DNA of 64,000 bases, from positions 12,180,701 through 12,244,700 of the forward strand of contig OY855913.1 in NCBI GenBank assembly GCA_963693305.1. Direction: 5' to 3'. Each line of letters begins with the position of its first letter. Positions within the stretch are counted from its first letter, which is position 1. The notes under the pieces were generated by a model that ran no database searches, was not told the DNA's origin, and worked only from the letters and a program-made list of their open reading frames with translations. The stretch comes from Meandrina meandrites (lineage: Eukaryota > Cnidaria > Anthozoa > Scleractinia > Meandrinidae). Shown piece after piece: positions 14,101 through 42,675 of this stretch. The position numbers were made by a program, and so were the translations under genes.

Positions 14101-17100
14101 ACACCACCCTTAATCAGTAAAACACAGTATTGTCAAGCGTCATTACAATCGCACTAAATGCCTCGTAACTGAACCATATTTCTGTTATCTCCAAGGAGCA
14201 AAAGCATTTGTCATTTGTTCTTGTTTCTAAAGGTTATCCTTTTTATTTCTTGCAGAAGATCACCAAGACCAGAAAGCCAACCACCACACTGCACTGCTGA
14301 ACCAGCGAAAGAGTTTAAATCTACTGCAGTCCTACCTTATGTCAAAGGTCTTTTCGAGCAACTTCACAGCTGCCTACAAGGCATACACACTGTTTTCAAG
14401 TCGAAAACTGCACTATGATCAAACCTGTTACAGCCAAAAGACGCTGTTGATCGGGCTAAGCAAGATTGTATTGTTTACAGGATTTCCTGTGAATGCGGCA
14501 AAGTTTATGTTGGTGTGACTGGACAACTGATGAAAGACAGGATCAAAGCACATGGCCAAGACACCCGACTTGCCCAAACCCAGACCTCCGCTATTTCGGA
14601 GCACTCCCACAACACCAGACACCATTCACGTTGAAACGAGGTTAAGTTTATTGATCATGATCCCCATTGGTACTCATGTAGGGTCAAAGAGGCAATTCAC
14701 ACAAGACTTCACCCTAATAACATCAACAGGGATAGTGGAATTGAAATTCCAGAAGCATGGATGCCGACAATCAAAAACACAACAGGAGAACTATTCTTGG
14801 TTTTCACATGACGTCATCAAAATTCTAAAATCCCGAATCGCAAGACCCCTGAGTTTTTATCCTTCACTGGCTATTAGACATCCTTGATGTATATAATTTT
14901 GTTGAAGGTTTTTAGCTTGATAGCAGCTGCCATCTTTAAGATAGACGATTTTGAATTTCTGCATTTCACGCCACACAATATCAAGATGGCCGCCAGAAGG
15001 CTGTCACGTATGCTTAACAAAATGCCGCATCCTGTGATTTTTAACAGTCTGAACAGTTGAGGTTTTGCAATATGTGTTTATTGAATGCTTACTTGTTCAT
15101 GAGAGTGATCTGACTGCCTTTTATAGCAGAAGTGAATTCTAGATGTTTTCATGGATTTCTGGCCACCATGTTGGAGATATGTCCAGAAATGCACGCAATG
15201 ACGAAAATGACGAATTTGGCGAAATTTCGCCAAAGTTGAAGTTTTGAGGGAACGAGCTCGAGAGGAGGGTAGCACGAAAGCGGTGAATTCGACGAAAATG
15301 ATGAATTTGATGAAAAGGACGAATTTGGCGAAATTTCCCCAAAGTCGAAGATTTGAGGGAACGAGCTCAAGATGAGGGTAGCACGAAAGCGGCAAATTTG
15401 ATGAAAATGACTAATTCAACGAAAACAATGAATTTGGCAAAATTTTGCCAAAGTCAAAGATTTCAGGGAACGAGCTCGATTGGAGGGTAGCACGAAAGCG
15501 GCGAATTCGACGAAAACGACGAATTTGGCGAAATGTCGCCAAAGTCGAAGATTTCAGGGAACGAGCTCGAGTGGAGGGTAGCACAGAAGCGGCGAATTCG
15601 ACGAAAATGACAAATTCGACGAAAACGACGAATTTGGCGAAATTTCGCCAAAGTCGAAGTTTTGAGGGAACGAGCTCAAGATGAGGGTAGTTCGGAAGTG
15701 GCGAATTTGACGAAAATGACGAATTCCACGAAAACGACGAACTTGACGAAATTTCGCCAAAGTCGATGATTTCAGGGAACGAGCTCGATTGGAGGGTAGC
15801 ACGGAAGCGGCGAATTTGACGAAAACGACGAATTTGGCGAAATTGACGAATTTGGCGATTTTTCGCCAAAGTCGAAGATTTCAGGGAACGAGCTCGAGTG
15901 GAGGGTAGCACGGAAGCGGCGAATTTGGCGAAAACGACGAATTCGACCAAACTGACAAATTTGGCAAAATTTCGTCAAAGTCGAAGATTTCAGGGAATGA
16001 GCTCGAGTGGAGGGTAGCACGGAAGCGGCGAATTTGGCGAAAACGACGAATTCGACGAAAACGACGAATTTGGCGAAGTTGCGTCAAAGTCGAAGATTTC
16101 AGGGAATGAGCTGGAGTGGAGGGTAGCACAGAAGCGGCGAATTCGACGAAAATGACAAATTCGACGAAAACGACGAATTTGGCGAAGTTTCGCCAAAGTC
16201 GAAGTTTTGAGGGAACGAGCTCAAGATGAGGGTAGTTCGGAAGTGGCGAATTTGACGAAAATGACGAATTCCATGAAAACGACAAATTTGAAAAAATTTC
16301 GCCAAAGTCGATGATTTCAGGGAACAAGCTCGAGTGGAGGGTAGCACAGAAGCGGCGAATTCGACGAAAATGACGAATTCGAGGAAAACGACGAATTTGG
16401 CGAAATTTCGCCAAAGTCGAAGTTTTGAGGGAACGAGCTCAAGATGAGGGTAGTTCGGAAGTGGCAAATTTGACGAAAATGACGAATTCCACGAAAACGA
16501 CGAACTTGACGAAATTTCGCCAAAGTTGATGATTTCAGGGAATGAGCTTGATTGGAGGGTAGCACGGAAGCGGCGAATTTGACGAAAACGACGAATTTGG
16601 CGAAATTGACGAATTTGGCGATTTTTCGCCAAAGTCGAAGATTTCAGGGAACGAGCTCGAGTGGAGGGTAGCACGGAAGCGGCGAATTTGGCGAAAACGA
16701 CGAATTCGACCAAACTGACAAATTTGGCAAAATTTCGTCAAAGTCGAAGATTTCAGGGAATGAGCTCGAGTGGAGGGTAGCACGGAAGCGGCGAATTTGG
16801 CGAAAACGACGAATTCGACGAAAACGACGAATTTGGCGAAGTTGCGCCAAAGTCGAAGATTTCAGGGAACAAGCTGGAGTGGAGGGTAGCACAGAAGCGG
16901 CGAATTCGACGAAAATGACAAATTCGACAAAATTTCGCCAAAGTCGATGATTTCAGGGAACGAGCTCGATTGGAGGGTAGCACGGAAGCGGCGAATTCGA
17001 CGAATTTCATGAAACTGACGAATTTGGTGAAATTACGCCAAAGTCGAAGATTTCAGAGAACGAGCTCGAGTGGAGGGTAGCACGGAAGCGGCGAATTTGG

Positions 17101-20100
17101 CGAAAATGACGAATTTGGCGAAATTTCGCCAAAGTCGAAGATTTCAGGGAACGAGCTGGAGTGGAGGGTAGCACAGAAGCGGCGAATTCGACGAAAACGA
17201 CGAATTTGGCGAAATTTCGCCAAAGTCGAAGTTTTGAGGGAACGAGCTAGTTCGTGTTGTCATACATAGCATAGTAAAGTAAAATGCTTTAACAAACTCC
17301 TACTGGTCTTGACATCTCCGACAACCAAAGCACAACAACAATGACATTTCACGTGGCCTTATATAGAATACTACACTTAACTCATTGACTGTTGACTCAT
17401 TGTTTCACCCTCTTTTTGAGCATACAAATGCCCCAAATTACACTAGAACAAGACGTATTCCCAGCGCCTGGGGGGCGTAAAGGAAAAAACCTTGCATGCA
17501 GGGGTACTGATATTTTCTAGAAGAACACATACATGTACAGGTAGTCCAAAAGAACAGCAATGACACTTCACATTGTCATACATAGCATAGTGAACTAAAT
17601 TGCTTAAACATACTTATTGTGGTCTTGACATGTCTCACAGCTAAAGCACAAGAACAATGACACTTCATTTTGTCATACATAGCATAGTAAACTAAATTGC
17701 TTTAACAAACTCCTACTGGTCTTGACATCTCCCACAACTGAAGCACAACAACAATGACATTTCACATGGCCTTACATAGAATACTAAACTAAATTGCCAA
17801 CAACATATTCATACTGGTCTAAACATGTCTAACAGCTTAAGCACAAGTGTTATTTTGCGAATACGTGTCAGTTGATGGCAGATCCGGCAAATCACTTGTC
17901 TGGGAATCACTGAGCCGGCAGTTTTCGTGCCAAAAGTTGCTAAACAACATGCTTCTTGAGTATTCGTGACCGCTCGCGCTAAAATTAGTTTGAGGAGACT
18001 CGAACGCTTCGACAAAGTCGTAGCACAACTGCAGCCTTGTAACGATTCCAACACAAACACAATCTGGATTCACTAGAGCTTCAGTATATCAATGTCATCT
18101 CAGCTCAGCAGGAAACTCTGTATGGATACAAGAGATTGCTAAAACAAATGTGGCTAAGTGTTATTTGTTTTCATTGGGACATGGATCGACCGTTATGACA
18201 GGCAAGCAGAAAGGTTACATTGACCCAAACGACAGTATTTTCACAAGTGTCATTGATCATTCATGGGTGAATCACTACATATTTTTATGGAGGTTCTTAA
18301 CTTTGGAACAGTTTGAAAAGAGACAGTAAAGCGAGGGATTAACTTTATTAGCCTGCATTCCCCAACATTGGCTGGATTATTCGTGGCTGATGGACTATTT
18401 TGACTGAGGCATTAACACTTAATATCACCACTTACATCTGTCAAAACAAGGACGTGAAAGGAACATAGTGTAAGTTGTTTGATACAATGCACAAATATTA
18501 TTCTTACGTCCACAAATGAGTATTTGTCAGTGCAATATTTAACAAAGGAGGCATACATTTACGTACTTTCTCCATATTTACCTTACTATATTTGAAGAAC
18601 GAGGCATACAAACATGTACTTTTTTAGCTGTTTACTTGTCCAATGGGTCAACATGGCAACGCTGTGTAAATATAAGTGGCTTCCTGATTTCAATAGAGTT
18701 TCTGTATATCAATGCCTGAAGTCAGGACAGCAGGAAATTCTGCAATATTGGATATGAAAGATTCCTAAAGCAAATGGATTAATTGTTTTCATTGGGACAT
18801 AGATCTCGTGAAGTTGGCAAGATTGCATAATTGAGTTAATTCTCATAAGTTTGCTGTATGCAAATATCATACTGACAGGCCACAAGGAAATTGTTGTGGC
18901 TATGTCTTAACCTGTGTCATGTCTAGAGAATCAGGCATGTTGGTATGTTTGCAGTTCCTGTGTCATGTCTAAAGAACGAGGCATTCATGTATGTATGCAT
19001 TTTTACAGTTGTTAATAATAATTATGTGTCAAATCTGTGAGCATTGCATGAGTTGAGTTCAAGGATATAACTTTGCTCATCAAATATGTCAGCAGTGCAT
19101 GAGTTGAGTTCCGAGACATAACTTTACTGGCTTGACGAATTTGACGAAATTTCGTCACATTCGTCATTTTCGCCAATTTCGTCAAATATGTCAGCAGTGC
19201 ATGAGTTGAGTTCCAAGACATAACTTTGCTGGCTTGACGAATTTGACGAAATTTCGTCACATTTGTCATTTTCGCCAATTTCCCCAATTTCGTCAAATAT
19301 GTCAGCAGTGCATGAGTTGAGTTCCAAGACATAACTTTGCTGGCTTGACGAATTTGGCGAAATTTCGTCACATTTGTCATTTTCGCCAATTTTGTCAAAT
19401 ATGTCAGCAGTGCATGAGTTGAGTTCCAAGACATAACTTTGCTGGCTTGACGAATGTGACAAAATTTTGTCACATTCGTCATTTTCGTCAATTTCGTCAA
19501 ATATGTCAGCAGTGCATGAGTTGAGTTCCAAAACATAACTTTGCTGGCTTGACGAATTTGACGAAATTTCGTCACATTCGTCATTTTCGCCAATTTCGTC
19601 AAATATGTCAGCAGTGCATGAGTTGAGTTCCAAAACATAACTTTGCTGGCTTGACGAATTCGACGAAATTTTGTCACATTCGTCATTTTCGCCAATTTCG
19701 TCAATTTCGTCAAATATGTCAGCAATGCATGAGTTGAGTTCCAAGACATAACTTTGCTGGCTTGACGAATTTGACGAAATTTCGTCACATTCGTCATTTT
19801 ACATCACTCTGCTGGCTTGACGAAATTTCGCCACATTCGTCATTTTCGTTGTTGCGTGCATTTCTGGACATAAGTGCCATGTTGGTGCCCATCTGCTTGG
19901 GCACCAACATGGCGTTTCCATACTGTGCTCTGTAAATTTGTGTGGAACATTTTGATGGATAACTCGAGTACGGAATACCGTACAAACCCGAGACTTGGAC
20001 AAACAGCATATCTGGTAATTTTCTATAACCTTATTCTTGAGTTTTTCGACTCAATAGTTTTGGATTAACTTTTTTGCAGCGTGACAGTGAAAACCAGCAT

Positions 20101-35656: not shown

Positions 35657-36078
35657 GTATCGTCACTGACAAGCTCTCCACTCGTATACAGCGGATAACT
35701 TTTTAACTGTGAGCTATTTTTTATTTCTTAGCGGTTGGTGGTGACTGATGTTGCTCTATGTTGCTGCGTAATAAACTAGATTTGGTCGCTTTGGACAATT
35801 TTTTCTTGCCAAAATTAGTCGCCTATTCGTCATTTTGAGCGAGCCAGGCTGGAGCGAGCAAATTCACATTTCCACCTAGCCAGTGTGCGATTTGTGCGGT
35901 GCGTTGCATCGGATAGGGCAGAATGAGAAAGGGATGAGAAAAGAAGTCTCTCTTGTTTTCCCTCAAATAAATCGACGCCCCCACCCCCTCCCCGCTCCCC
36001 CAATCTCGTTTCTAGTGCCTAAAAACAATCCGTGGAACGAGGATGAGGGTCGATTGAGGAAGTCCGAACTGTTGAGTT

Positions 36079-36097
36079 CGTGGCGTGTTTTCATTGG
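36079..36097 (-). promoter_or_regulatory. ER stress response element (ERSE) upstream of XBP1
   Basis: The plus strand reads CGTGG, nine bases (cgtgttttc), ATTGG. On the minus strand this is CCAAT-N9-CCACG, a perfect match to the ERSE consensus bound by NF-Y plus ATF6 or XBP1. It lies about 160 bp before the XBP1 ATG, where a proximal promoter is expected. Confidence 0.75.
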
Positions 36098-36257
36098 CCA
36101 AGGCTGATTTATTCGTTCTATTTTGGGAAAATCATTTACCATATTTGGAAATATGATGAAATTTTCGGAAAAATTTCGTCGCTTGCTTGTAAAACGAAGG
36201 CCGTATTGCTAAAACCTAGACTTAACATTGTTAGTGGAACCGTTTATCAACGGTAAA

Positions 36258-38748
36258 ATGGAATCGAAAACTATCGACAGAGAGGCTGTACTAAATTCGC
36301 TTGTTTTAAACAACTCGACAACAGATGGGCAACCCAGAAAAAGAAAAAGACTTGACAATTTATCTGCCGAAGAAAGAGCTCTTCGAAGGTACAATGAACT
36401 TGATAGATGGCCTTTTGATGATTCTTTCTCAGTATAAACTAAGCTTGTACTAACTGTATTTTGGCGTCCGACTCATCTCAGTTAGCTTACGCACTTCTCT
36501 GAATATTCCTTTTCTTGAATGAACTAAACTCTTTCTTGTTATTGTTTTGCTCAGAAAACTAAAGAATCGCGTGGCTGCTCAAACCGCTCGTGATAGAAAG
36601 AAGGCACGAATGACGGAACTCGAGGAAATGGTCGCACAATTAGAACAAGAGGTAACAATCATACTGACCAACGTCTTTATTTTAGGCGTCCCGATATAAA
36701 CGACAAAAGAATCGAGCCCTAAGCTTGGGCATATCCAAATTTTGTTAAATATACTTTGGCAGAGCCTAAATGTCTTAAGTTTTGTTTTCATTTTTTAGAT
36801 TAGTTTTCAACCCCTAAAATAAAACCAGCTTTTACTCTTGGACTGAAGCTGAAATATTTAATGGCATATAAATAAAGGAACAGCTTGTTGGACTTGACAT
36901 CTATGTCAAGTTTTACCCAAGCTCAGACTTTACTACCTATTCTTTTCTTGGGAGTGGGGAGGGGGTTGCCAGTGAAAGGAGCCAATATTTCTTGTCTTTC
37001 CTTATACCAGGCATTGATTAAAAGTCTTCTTTCGTGTATATGTTGTGATTCAATTTTACCGTTCGTACAATTTGATATTCTCCTTTATTGTAGTGTACAG
37101 TAACATGTGATACCTAATATAAAACAAAGGAAAATACCAAATACACCTTTTTTTGGTTTTTGACGCCATCTTAGTTGGGAGGCAAACATGGCAAAATTTA
37201 CAGTTAATGTATGGGAACAGTGGGAAAGCCACAGTTGAGCATTTCATTTTTATATACATTTGTCTGAAATCCAAGCTGCCATTTGTGTGGAAAGAGTTAA
37301 GAAACATTTGTATAAAAAAACTAAAAATGCAATTTCTCCCTTGCCAGCATAGCTGTGTCCTTCAAATTTAATCGACTGAATCTTTTGCTAGGTATCTTTG
37401 ACTTGCAATTCATAGAAGTTGCAGAATGTTAATTTTCTTTAAATTATTGGGCTTTGAACTCCTAATTTTCCCATACATTTACTGTAAATTTTTTTGTGTT
37501 AACCTTGCAACTAAGGTTGTGCCAGAAACCTTGAGAAGGTCTATTGTACCAAGGGTAAATTTTAAGTCAAATGCCTTTTTTAATTTAGAATAAAGCTCTT
37601 CGCATGGACAATGAAAGTCTAAGAAAGCATTCCGAGGCTGTGACAATTGAGAATTCGGAGTTAAGAGTTCGCCTTGGCATCACACCTCCAGTATCACCAG
37701 AGCCTGTCACTACATACACATACCCACCAAGTCCAGAAACAAGCTCACCTTCAAAGCATATCCATTCAGTTGTGATCAAGAAAGAAGCAGAATGTAACGA
37801 GTATGCATCACTCTTAGTTTCTCAGCAGCAGGAACGCCTGATTCTGTTTCTTTCTCTGATCACGACTTGGATGACGATCAACAACAGGTATGGATAATTT
37901 GTAATATTTCTTATTTTAATTCCTAGCAAAACTGTAAACAAGGTTGCTTATTTGTGCTTTAAAACAAGCTTAAACTTACTACTGAAAGGCTCATAAATCA
38001 GGCTGATGTTAATTTTACTGCCCATGCAGTTAAGTATTCACTGTGACTTGAAATTTGGGATGTATCCCACTCCTGTGTGGTTTCCAGGCATCAGATGTGT
38101 TACAATGGAATTTAATCACTATTACTGGAACCAAAATACGACAGGCCAGCTGATGCGACACTTGTGGGAGGATTAATTTGCATGTAGTCTATCAGCTATG
38201 TAAATTGTATTTAATTTTGCTTTCATTTAACTTTTGCAATTGCTCTATACACTGATTATATATGTAATGTCTTTCTTATTTGTAATTCTGTGAACAGTTA
38301 AGAGTTTTTATCACTGAATATAATTTTAAAGAAAAGGAGAAACAGCAGTGACACTAGGATAAAATGTTGTATTTGTTTCACTTTCCAGCCTGACATGGAT
38401 TTTGGCTTTCTTGAACATGATGAAGAAGGAGAATCACTTGCACTTATTCAGCCCAAGCAGGAAGCCAAGTCAGGCTCAACCTGCTGTCAGCATAAGACCT
38501 TCTCAACCACAAAAGACAAGGTCGACAACACAGACGAGACAGTCCCAGAATCGAGCAGCAGTGACATAACAGTAGCAGACCTTGTTGGAATGGACTGTGA
38601 GGCTTTTGATTCATTGGATGATATTTTAAACTTCAAAGATTTCTCGAAAGAGTTCAAAGAAATTGAGGTTGAACCGGGAATGTTAGGTTGTGAAATGTGG
38701 GAGGAAACCTTCACAGAAGTATTGTTCCCATCCCTTTTGGCTGTCTAG
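36258..38748 (+). CDS. XBP1: X-box binding protein 1, UPR bZIP transcription factor
   Basis: Four exons join in phase: 36258-36388, 36555-36651, 37589-37887 and 38389-38748. The ATG at 36258 (MESKTIDREAV) is the first in frame. Residues about 44-62 form the basic region (KLKNRVAAQTARDRKKAR, nearly identical to vertebrate XBP1), followed by a leucine zipper through LRKHSEAVTIENSELRVRLG. The acidic C-terminal exon (ADLVGMDCEAFDSLDDI) is the transactivation part. After removal of a predicted 20-nt IRE1 intron in exon 3, the frame runs to the stop at 38746-38748, giving 288 residues. Without it, the frame ends at 38567-38569, giving 235 residues with a hydrophobic tail. XBP1 activates ER chaperone and degradation genes under ER stress. 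Confidence 0.95.
37799..37835 (+). promoter_or_regulatory. IRE1 double-hairpin unconventional splice site in XBP1 mRNA
   Basis: Two adjacent hairpins have 7-nt loops. The first, 37799-37813, has stem GAGT/ACTC and loop ATG|CATC. The second, 37817-37835, has stem GTTTCT/AGGAAC and loop CAG|CAGC. The second loop fits the IRE1 consensus CNG|CNGN. The first keeps the vertebrate stem and the G|C cut but lacks C at -3 and G at +3. Cutting both after the third loop base removes 37806-37825 (20 nt) and joins the zipper frame to the transactivation frame. An alternative 3' cut after 37828 would remove 23 nt in the same frame. Confidence 0.8.
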
Positions 38749-38875
38749 CTTATAGATTAAAAAAGTCTGTCTAAGTCTGACTGATGTATAATTAGGCACA
38801 TACTTACAATCTCCATGTATTATCCTTAAGACAAGGCTGAAAAATCATCTTAATAGTCAAGTCTGATACATGGGG

Positions 38876-39135
38876 GCTGCAGTGGCCTAATAACTAGCAC
38901 ACTGGACTCTGGATTGAACAGTGTGGGTTAGAGCCAGCCCTTGCTGGGGTTATTGTGTCGTGTTCTTGTGCAAGACACTTTTGCTCTCCACCCATGTGTA
39001 CCAATAAGCACCATTCTGATCCAAGGAGAGTAGATACACTGTACTCCTTGTGGTTTAAAGCTAACATAGCTGGAGTTGAGCGCTGACCCGGTAAGCCACC
39101 AAGGCTTGAAGATAGACCTTACTGTACTAAAACAT
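38876..39135 (+). mobile_element. diverged tRNA-derived SINE copy
   Basis: gcagtggcctaataactagc, cactggactctgga, gtgttcttgtgcaagacact and tccacccatgtgta follow the same order as the SINE at 30512, with many substitutions and internal deletions. It lies about 130 bp past the XBP1 stop codon, possibly in the 3' UTR or just beyond. Confidence 0.7.
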
Positions 39136-40540
39136 TCTGCCAAGTACAAGGTGGACAAAATGATTATCTTTGTGGATGGTCAGAACAGTAATACTTCTGC
39201 TGGTTGTACATTGTTTACAGATGGTCATTCTTAAAGCAGTTGTAGAATAACTAATTAAAGAAGTAAAACAGGCAAATTACAAACAAAAAATGCACCAGTA
39301 TTAGAAGAAAATAATTACATGTATATGAAACTAAAGTATATACACAAGATGCAAGTACCTAAACAGTCAAATTGGGCTTATCAATAACCCAAAAAATCAA
39401 TGTTAAAATTAGCTACATTTTAATATTCACGTAAATAACTCTTGACAATGTTTCTTAAATGATTTTTATATAATCCTTGTAATTTAGAGAACTTGACTTC
39501 TGTGAAAGTTTCCTATTATCAATTACTGTTAAATAGCAGTGGTCTCACATTGATCAATAAAAGTAGTCGTGGGTTATTTTGGTTGTATTTATTTAATTTG
39601 CCATATGCCAGAAGTTTCCAGTGAGCTAATAGTTGCCGAGGTCATAGTACGGTAAAGTGAAGCCAAGTTGCTCATAGAAATCACGGGCGAGTAGTCCCGC
39701 AAATTAAGAATATTTCCATTTTCAAGAGCGTTATTTTCTATTTCTACCTTTCAATTTCGTACTGCCCCTCCATTTTAGGCCTCCTTGTGGCCAAACTCGG
39801 GCAGGACAATTGTCGTTGGAGACTGTACGTATTTATGGTATTATGCTGCTATCACTATTTCTGTCACTTACGGAAGACCTTACCCAGCTCTGAGCTATCT
39901 CTTTACCTGTATAACCTGTGCACCGGAAAACTTAAGGTACTACTATGATCAAATTTTCACCTCTTGCAATTTTAGGGGTTTCAACGGGTATTTAAAGTTT
40001 TCAAATGTCTTTATTAGTTCCGGAGATATTTAAGCTTAAAAAAATCGTAAATTATGCACATTAGGGGATTGATGATGTCATGTACTCGACCCAATTTTTT
40101 TGTCAAGTACAAAAATTAAGTTATCTCGGTCATTTTTCTGCAGAGACCAATGAAACTTGGCAGACTTTTAGTTCCACAGATGACATACCTACAGTTGTAA
40201 TTAAATTATGTTACCATGGCAACTCATTCTTTTCCAGTCCCCATCAATTTGTTTTTAATATAATTTTAGAATTTTTCAGTTCGGAAAATTTAAACCCAGG
40301 AAAGATGTCTGCCAAATCCATTGATATGTTTGCCAGATCTCGCATGTTAAGCATTATTTACCAATATTAAAAAAGAATGCCAGAATTGGCCAGAAAAGCC
40401 TTTAGCATTGGGGGGATCTGAAACCTAGTATGTCGCCATGGTAAATGAAATTACGAACAAAAGTTCATAGTACTGCGTGACACTTGGACGAATCAAAGTA
40501 AAAAAATGTAAAAAGGTAAAAAAGTGCCAAAAAGTTGTTT
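39136..40540. other. no supported gene
   Basis: AT-rich spacer between the XBP1 3' end and the Penelope-like element. Small frames at 39785-40033 and 40080-40370 show no domain. Confidence 0.4.
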
Positions 40541-40669: not shown

Positions 40670-40996
40670 CTAAATGAATGTAAAGTTGATGTTCATCCGG
40701 CTAGGTGGTGTGCCCAGCTTGAAGATTAGCCGCATTTCCAGTCGTTTCCGGAAGATGTTGCTGCCCGAGAAGAGCTTGATACCGCGAATTTCGGCGTCGG
40801 ATAAGCTGTGGTTTAATCCATTGAAGTGCTCAGCTACAGGAAAACCAGGAGAATTCTTCTCGATCCTCCGGAGGTGTTCTCGGAGGTTGCAGCCGGTCTC
40901 CCCGATGTAGAGAGCTGAGCACTTACGGTAAGAAATGCAGTAGATCAAGTTGCTGGAGTCACAACTGAAATGTTCCTTGATGTTGATCAGTGGAGC
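40670..40996 (-). pseudogene. GIY-YIG endonuclease fragment of an inverted Penelope-like copy
   Basis: The minus-strand frame reads SSNLIYCISYRKCSALYIGE followed by TGCNLREHLRR, the GIY-YIG-type core. It then has FPVAEHFNGLNHSLSDAEI and a C-terminal RKRLEMRLIFKLGT. It lacks an RT on its own strand and abuts the plus-strand RT head to head. Penelope-like elements often carry such inverted partial copies at the 5' side. The nuclease frame is intact but is only the C-terminal part. Confidence 0.75.
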
Positions 40997-42675
40997 ACTC
41001 AATGGTCCTCAATAAGAGAACAGCTTATTCAAACCTTTTTTCTTACTGAAAAACAAGCACTGGACCGACTTAGCAAACGAGATGACATCGTCATCAAGCC
41101 TGCGGACAAAGGCGGCGCTGTAGTTGTATGGGCAAGAGCGTTGTACCTCGTGGAGGCTCGGCGACATTTATCCGATGTCAGATTCTACCAATGCCTCAAT
41201 CAAGACTGCACCAAGAAAAGCCGGCAAACAGTAAAATCTGTAGTTCATGATTTAATCAGCACCTGCGAATTACCACCTACTGCGAGCAACTTGATTGTGA
41301 CTTCTCCACGTACATCACAATTCTACCTTCTACCAAAGATCCACAAGCCAAACCATCCAGGATGTCCAATTGTATCCGCTTGCAGCTGTCGGACCGAAAA
41401 TATCTCAGCATACCTTGATGAGGTGATGGCTCCCCTGGTGCGTGGACTTAGCTCGTACGTCAAAGACACAAATCATGCACTTCAGATTTTCGATTCTTTT
41501 CATTTCGACCCTATGGACATAAAATCATTGTACACGGTCATACCCAATGACTGTGGCCCATTTCCTCGACAAACGACCTGTTCTTCAACCTGCGACATCC
41601 ACCTTGACCCGACTTGCAGAGCTTGTATTAACTCTTCTCTTTCAATGGCGCGTTTTACCGACATGTAGCTGGAGTAGCCATGGGCAGTAAAATGGGCCCA
41701 AATTACGCCTGCCTGTTTGTCGGCTATATGGAAGAAGTCATCTTATCTCAGTACACTGGCTTTATTCCTCGGTTGTACAAGAGATACATTGACGACGCTG
41801 CAGGGGCCGCATGCTGCTATCGTAAGGACCTTGAGGACTTCATTGCGTATGTTTCTAACTTCCATCCATCTCTTCAGTACACGCACACCATTTCTGAAAC
41901 CTCGCTACCTTTTCTTGACATCAATCTGCACATAGTTGGCAACAGTCTTCAAACGTCGGCTTACTACAAAGAAACAGACACACACAGCTATCTACATCAT
42001 CAGTCATCACACCCCCAGCATTCTAAGAACAGCCTTCCCTACAGTCAACTTCTGCGCCTCTGCCGTCTTTGTTCAGATGAAAACGATTTTAGTACTAAAG
42101 CAAAAGAGATGTGTGGCTTCTTCCGCGAGCGGGGCTATCCCTCCGATTCACTTCGTGAAGACCTGCGGAAAATAAGTAACATCAACAGGATGGACACCAT
42201 CTACAGCCATCGCGATGAAAACAATCAAGCTGGGAGGATACCATTAGTTCTCACTTACCACCCTCTCAATGAACAAATTAAGAAGATCCTGCTCGGCAAC
42301 TTCCGCATTTTAAACAACGACCCAGAGACTGGGCGGATCTTCACTGATGCCCCCCTTCTAGCATATCGCCGAGACCGCAACATCCGAAATATATTGGTGC
42401 ATACCACTGTTGGAAATCAATCCACCGATCCCGCTGGCACTTTTCCTTGCAACCATCCAAGATGTCGTACCACAGCTTATCCGACGCCGAAATTCGCGGT
42501 ATCAAGCTCTGCTCGGGCAACAACATCTTCCGGAAACGACTGGTCGCCTTGTCGCCATGGTAACCAAGTTGTAAAAGTCATTGTGAAACACGACAAGCAG
42601 TGTTACTACAAAGAATCAGACTTTCAATACAAATTGGCTGAAATATCACTTTCTTCGTATTTAATCAGAATTTAG
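40997..42675 (+). pseudogene. Penelope-like reverse transcriptase, frameshifted
   Basis: Two frames (to 41668, then 41680-42675) make up one RT: IVIKPADKGGAVVVW, FYLLPKIHKPNHPGCPIVS, MDIKSLYTVIPNDCG, AMGSKMGPNYACLFVGYMEE, the catalytic YIDD box (RYIDDAAGA), LPFLDINLHI and LAYRRDRNIRNILVHT. The joint near 41550-41670 has a frameshift and a TAG at 41666. At the 3' end the GIY-YIG domain has an internal deletion: its tail (SDAEIRGIKL and FRKRL) survives out of frame near 42480-42540. The RT catalytic aspartates remain, but the protein cannot be made whole from this copy. It is an inactive or sequencing-broken retroelement. Confidence 0.85.

Follow-up and report, generated by a model that had tools for sequence, protein, structure and literature searches.

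The window analysed here is a 64,000-nucleotide (nt) stretch of the stony coral Meandrina meandrites (GenBank assembly GCA_963693305.1, contig OY855913.1, positions 12,180,701 to 12,244,700). It carries an XBP1 gene, and the subject of this report is that gene and the site at which its messenger RNA (mRNA) would be cut by IRE1. The gene is intact and lies on the plus strand at 36258-38748, with four coding exons, every one of them open, and three introns, all bordered by GT..AG. The features of the locus are given below in coordinates of the window, with the evidence for each in parentheses; a vertical bar within a motif marks the cut.

36258..36388, plus strand: XBP1 exon 1, coding part starting at ATG (gene model with GT..AG introns; homology)
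36555..36651, plus strand: XBP1 exon 2, basic region and start of the zipper (gene model; Pfam bZIP_1)
37589..37887, plus strand: XBP1 exon 3, remaining zipper, linker and IRE1 site (gene model)
37799..37813, plus strand: 5' hairpin GAGU-AUG|CAUC-ACUC with a non-canonical loop at 37803-37809 (sequence, RNAfold, codon-level conservation in relatives)
37806..37825, plus strand: predicted 20-nt IRE1 intron CATCACTCTTAGTTTCTCAG (frame switch; anthozoan spacing, 22 of 22 rows; fit of the spliced sequence P0003)
37817..37835, plus strand: 3' hairpin GUUUCU-CAG|CAGC-AGGAAC with a canonical loop at 37823-37829 (sequence; RNAfold pairing low, 0.22-0.23)
38389..38748, plus strand: XBP1 exon 4, activation domain in the spliced frame, ending in LFPSLLAV and the stop codon (gene model; conserved end)
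38567..38569, plus strand: stop of the frame of the unspliced form, XBP1u, upstream of the position of the arrest peptide in relatives (gene model; comparison with relatives)

Without removal of the IRE1 intron the exons encode XBP1u of 235 amino acids (aa), and without 37806-37825 they encode the spliced form, XBP1s, of 288 aa, the C-terminal end of which is WEETFTEVLFPSLLAV. Exon 4 is 360 nt long, i.e., 119 codons and a stop, and its activation-domain frame is accessible only after a removal of 2-mod-3 length, as is characteristic of XBP1. The spliced protein matched bZIP_1 of Pfam at residues 40-93 (1.2e-11). Relatives were drawn from two protein searches, as the best 120 of 1276 matches to the spliced query and the best 120 of 1224 matches to the unspliced one. 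The top matches were coral proteins in both. P0001 with 90% and P0002 of Oculina patagonica with 89% covered 52% of the spliced query, and the same two (86% and 89%) covered the full length of the unspliced query. Among the matches listed, the best named ones were coral XBP1-like proteins, which together with the bZIP domain agrees with XBP1 orthology. In the tree the XBP1 of the window was nearest to Oculina, within a cnidarian clade of 44 rows (support 99/89); the fork uniting the window with Oculina alone was weak (98/37) and many other forks were unresolved. By homology and tree position the gene at 36258-38748 is a scleractinian XBP1.

From yeast to human, a CNG|CNGN loop counts as the signature of an IRE1 splice site, and IRE1 targets are predicted with it. 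In exon 3, two stems with 7-nt loops flank a short intron, which is the layout of HAC1/XBP1-type substrates. The 3' loop, CAG|CAGC, follows the signature. The 5' loop, AUG|CAUC, has A at -3 and U at +3 and retains G at -1 and C at +1; since it does not follow CNG|CNGN, the site was classed as a variant HAC1/XBP1-type substrate. The predicted cuts fall at 37805|37806 and 37825|37826, and a frame shift into exon 4 results from removal of these 20 nt, likewise from removal of 23 nt with the cut at the CAG|CAG that follows. A preceding sequence-only reading had called the gene a cnidarian XBP1 and had aligned the hairpin pair with the vertebrate layout, with a GAGT/ACTC stem as in human. It had described a 5' loop, ATG|CATC, without C-3 and G+3 beside a canonical 3' loop, and had proposed a 20-nt intron with ends at 37805/37826, the loss of which, or of 23 nt, would switch the frame into the 119-codon exon. 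All of this was recovered at the positions listed above, and the intron length gained further agreement from the relatives described below.

A loop of the form C.GC.G. on a stem of at least six pairs was found at one site in the whole window, both strands included, namely the 3' hairpin. When the peptide was recoded synonymously, both stems and the canonical 3' loop were regained in 7 of 100,000 trials, a figure which is optimistic because the thresholds were set from the observed site. In a 48-nt fold, RNAfold gave pairing probabilities of 0.80-0.85 for the 5' hairpin and of 0.22-0.23 for the 3' hairpin, the latter low because of a competing hairpin; the corresponding values for the human pair were 0.95-1.0. 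A canonical 5' loop hidden in the coding exons was also considered. The XBP1 coding sequence contains five CNGCNG strings, and this candidate was ruled out since no other CNGCNG loop in the coding exons had a stem of at least four pairs. Rfam, run at a permissive threshold over 36000-39800, returned no IRE1-intron family; its three matches, MIR854 (E 0.1) and two small nucleolar RNAs (E 2.6 and 2.7), were far under the gathering scores and were rejected as chance.

In the unspliced frame the 5' site encodes E-X-A-Z-L, where -3 falls on the second base of the X codon, the Ala codon supplies -1 and +1 with its first two bases, and the Z codon starts at +3; the loop can therefore be read in relatives known as proteins alone. 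For the motif reading 48 rows were picked by hand (47 cnidarian database rows and the window), with Ala and one of S/Y/H/F required. Among the 47 database rows, 43 have Tyr or His as X, which gives A at -3, and two have Phe, which gives U; C is possible in the two with Ser, P0014 of Nematostella and the spliced P0003. The scleractinian rows, 12 in all (nine full-length and three fragments, from several genera), read E-Y-A-S without exception, with A at -3 and T or A at +3, so that C-3 and G+3 are both absent by codon reading. The four octocoral rows have Tyr and Glu, which gives A at -3 and G at +3. A count of the other animals which required Ser (77 of 110 rows) is circular, and a neutral recount was used instead, where any residue was allowed at X and Z and Ala, hence G-1 and C+1, was still demanded by the pattern. 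Of the 57 cnidarian rows, 46 then had a candidate, with Tyr in 28, His in 15, Phe in two and Ser in one; C at -3 is impossible in 45 of these 46, with Nematostella as the exception. In the other animals, i.e., the rows outside the cnidarian set, many of them named vertebrates and some invertebrates, 75 of 110 rows had a candidate, and Ser was included in 74 of the 75. Five of the 75 had a second, off-site candidate beside Ser, and P0030 had only a Gln candidate, apparently off-site. The rows without a candidate were, for cnidarians, eight fragments of exons 1-2, P0023 and two spliced forms (11 of 57), and for the other animals mostly frame-corrected vertebrate annotations (35). The sequence-only reading had called for a comparison of orthologues, in which a canonical 5' loop would mark this copy as mutated or misassembled; at the protein level none of the scleractinian rows has one. 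The departures recur across corals and their relatives, and this suggests that cnidarian IRE1 reads RNA less strictly.

In all 45 cnidarian unspliced rows read, both residues at the 3' site came from the set L, P, Q and R, as a CNG|CNG loop would allow, although this is not proof of one. The two sites were 20 nt apart in all 22 anthozoan rows read. The two scyphozoan-like rows had 23 nt, and the 21 hydrozoan rows were divided between 23 nt (16) and 20 nt (five). According to PMC6627864, 20 nt is also the length of the hacA intron in Aspergillus and Trichoderma. Since this length is already known from filamentous fungi, what stands out is the loop more than the length.

Two of the cnidarian rows are spliced forms. 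The first, P0003, is a sea anemone protein of 289 aa from a 962-nt contig, with Nematostella as its partner in the tree (100/87). Compared with Nematostella or Exaiptasia in the shifted frame, it agrees with a 20-nt junction at 14 of 14 residues and with other lengths at six at most; as the residue before the junction is Ser, P0003 backs the 20-nt length and not the relaxed loop. The second, P0031, is a hydrozoan protein of 341 aa from a 1129-nt contig, placed in the Hydra/Hydractinia group of the tree. Here a 23-nt junction directly after His fits 12, 12, 10 and 9 of 14 residues against four relatives, with eight at most for other lengths. None of 20,000 random stretches from proteins other than P0031 reached 12, the highest being 10, and with P0031 itself in the pool one of 20,000 stood at 12. 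A junction at the earlier E-S-A instead of E-H-A was rejected, as its best register gave 10 of 14 and three of the first four residues were mismatched. Because His is CAY, the loop joined in P0031 must have had the form AYG|C, with A at -3, and for a hydrozoan the sequence supports cleavage of such a loop. A search for further hydrozoan spliced forms with residues 145-341 of P0031 gave P0031 alone among 221 candidates.

IRE1 could also read the 5' loop through a base pair across the loop between -3 and +3 and not through fixed bases, in which case two compensating changes would have turned the C:G of other groups into A:U in the stony corals. The scleractinian A/U, the U/G of Exaiptasia and Actinostola, and the C/G of Nematostella are pairable if Ser is TCN, as in the window, and for a C:G pair of loop positions 1 and 6 the RNAfold probability was 0.61 in the 3' hairpin of the window and about 0.33 in the human hairpins. 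For A:U in the 5' loop of the coral, however, it was just 0.018, four octocoral rows and P0040 show A with G, eight hydrozoan rows show A with Leu (C or T), and the independent events are few; we find such a pair unlikely. Another possibility concerns the 3' cut, which could fall at the second CAG|CAG so that 23 nt are excised. The CAGCAGCAG repeat permits this and the outcome for the frame is identical, but the 7-nt loop on the 6-pair stem puts the first CAG|CAG at the cut, and P0003 of a relative, which fits the 20-nt length throughout, fits 23 nt at 3 or 4 of 14 residues. A 23-nt excision is accordingly held to be quite improbable.

Judged from the sequence evidence, 37799-37835 is very probably a working IRE1 splice site of scleractinian XBP1, where a loss of 20 nt makes XBP1s. 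Several points weigh against this interpretation. The coral 5' loop departs from the motifs demanded by S. cerevisiae Ire1, which requires CNG|(C/A)NGN within a 7-nt loop (PMC8104961), and by mammalian XBP1 cleavage, which is described as requiring CNG|CAGN, with an intron of 26 nt (PMC8674358). The 3' hairpin is not the favoured fold, and the minimum-energy structure of 66 nt holds the 5' hairpin and not the 3' one. That the contigs of P0003 and P0031 are complementary DNA is an assumption, which we infer from their size and continuous frame. Finally, a spliced scleractinian form was not found among the best 120 of 1276 matches to the spliced query. This last absence also favours the view that the 5' hairpin is a relic and that coral XBP1s arises by ordinary alternative splicing, or is never made, as does the annotated Actinostola model P0011, which gets to the activation domain through a different predicted join. 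A relic is nevertheless hard to credit, since exon 4 has kept a long, spliced-only open frame with a conserved end, the 20-nt spacing is constant in the anthozoan rows read (22 of 22), and the junctions of the anemone and hydrozoan spliced sequences coincide exactly with the predicted cuts. That the single copy is mutated, a pseudogene or misassembled, an idea brought to mind by a loop which deviates at two conserved positions, is ruled out for practical purposes by intact exons and GT..AG introns and by the same codon-forced departures in all 12 scleractinian rows, which belong to several genera; by this codon reading the non-canonical 5' loop is a conserved feature of stony-coral XBP1.

At such a splice site, IRE1 would under endoplasmic reticulum stress cut the XBP1 mRNA in both hairpin loops, and a ligase, RtcB by homology, would join the cut ends. 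The loss of 20 nt would then shift the ribosome from the 235-aa XBP1u frame to the activation domain, so that XBP1s of 288 aa is produced. A looser mode of IRE1 would match the coral 5' loop and a strict mode the 3' loop, and the relaxed partner would be the cnidarian IRE1. Human IRE1 alpha as a phospho-oligomer also cleaves RNAs without the motif (PMC8674358), and S. pombe Ire1 uses a UG|C site (PMC8104961; PMC6037481). The literature searches, read by titles and abstract beginnings, showed no account of an XBP1 splice site from a cnidarian. In the passages concerned, XBP1 of Montipora (PMC6385260), mussels (PMC10079687) and Euphyllia (PMC9481131) is mentioned for its expression only, and the cnidarian passages of PMC11325440 deal with rhythms.

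The tail of XBP1u was the second part of the gene in which stony corals differed. The C-terminal end of human XBP1u is a ribosome-arrest peptide, and in the fruit fly a stall occurs at the same place (PMC8152447; PMC6624018). The WGxxQxxWxP core of this peptide was present in none of ten scleractinian unspliced forms (the window, P0001, P0002 and P0004-P0010) and in seven of nine unspliced forms from other anthozoans. Of the 126 rows that remain, a set including many spliced, frame-corrected or fragmentary ones, 51 had it. The scleractinian XBP1u terminates early in ..AVT, with more stops downstream in the frame of the window (38389-38569 region), and 15 of 23 medusozoan forms have a shorter WWG/WWA ending. 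A hydrophobic stretch is kept in the XBP1u frame of the window, where the best 17-aa mean is 1.28, as in bovine P0139 (1.28). Stony corals thus appear, from these protein comparisons, to have lost the pausing device of XBP1u and kept the splice site. At approximately 38380-38420 the XBP1u frame reads ..SLTWILAFLN.., similar to ..SPWILAVLTL.. of the human membrane-targeting region, and a dual-coded stretch may be shared by corals and mammals.

For Cnidaria as a whole we lean, with some reserve, to the reading that the 5' XBP1 loop is off the CNG|CNGN rule and the 3' loop on it, so that one IRE1 cuts two differently written loops, and that stony corals have gone beyond this by losing both C-3 and G+3 as well as the arrest peptide, so that their IRE1-XBP1 branch reads RNA and recruits its mRNA in another way than that of mammals. 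A phylum with an apparently working XBP1 and no 5' signature would offer natural variants for mapping the residues of the IRE1 RNase which determine loop specificity. In XBP1 splicing assays of heat-stressed corals, a 20-nt product is to be sought and not a 26-nt one, and the missing arrest peptide of stony corals makes the pausing role of XBP1u testable by comparison.

Elsewhere in the window, long open frames at 40919-42675 (plus strand) and 40670-41008 (minus strand) look retroelement-like by eye, with a YIDD motif in 41632-42675; three such frames were tested and gave no Pfam match at 0.001. The segments 15411-16738 and 19012-19803 are repetitive and open in more than one frame (e.g., repeated ..KFRQIRQASKVMSWNSTHALLTYLTKL..).

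Compared with known systems, the coral gene shares with vertebrate XBP1, the substrate of IRE1 alpha, the bZIP gene itself, the two 7-nt hairpin loops, the 2-mod-3 switch into a C-terminal activation domain, and a 5' stem identical to that of human (GAGUCCGCAGCACUC, PMC9472280). It differs from mammalian XBP1, which has a 26-nt intron and CNG|CAGN loops, by its 20 nt and by its 5' AUG|CAUC. The XBP1 of Nematostella vectensis, P0014, is likewise anthozoan and shares the 20-nt spacing and the 3' SQQQ site, whereas its E-S-A-A-L permits a canonical CNG|CNG loop and its arrest-peptide core is retained. The hacA/hac1 of filamentous fungi also has a 20-nt intron (PMC6627864), but it is a fungal gene, likened to the coral one by length alone. 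The RIDD sites of S. pombe Ire1 share the UG|C which is present in the coral 5' loop (PMC8104961; PMC6037481), yet they lead to decay rather than splicing, and the size of their loop is variable.
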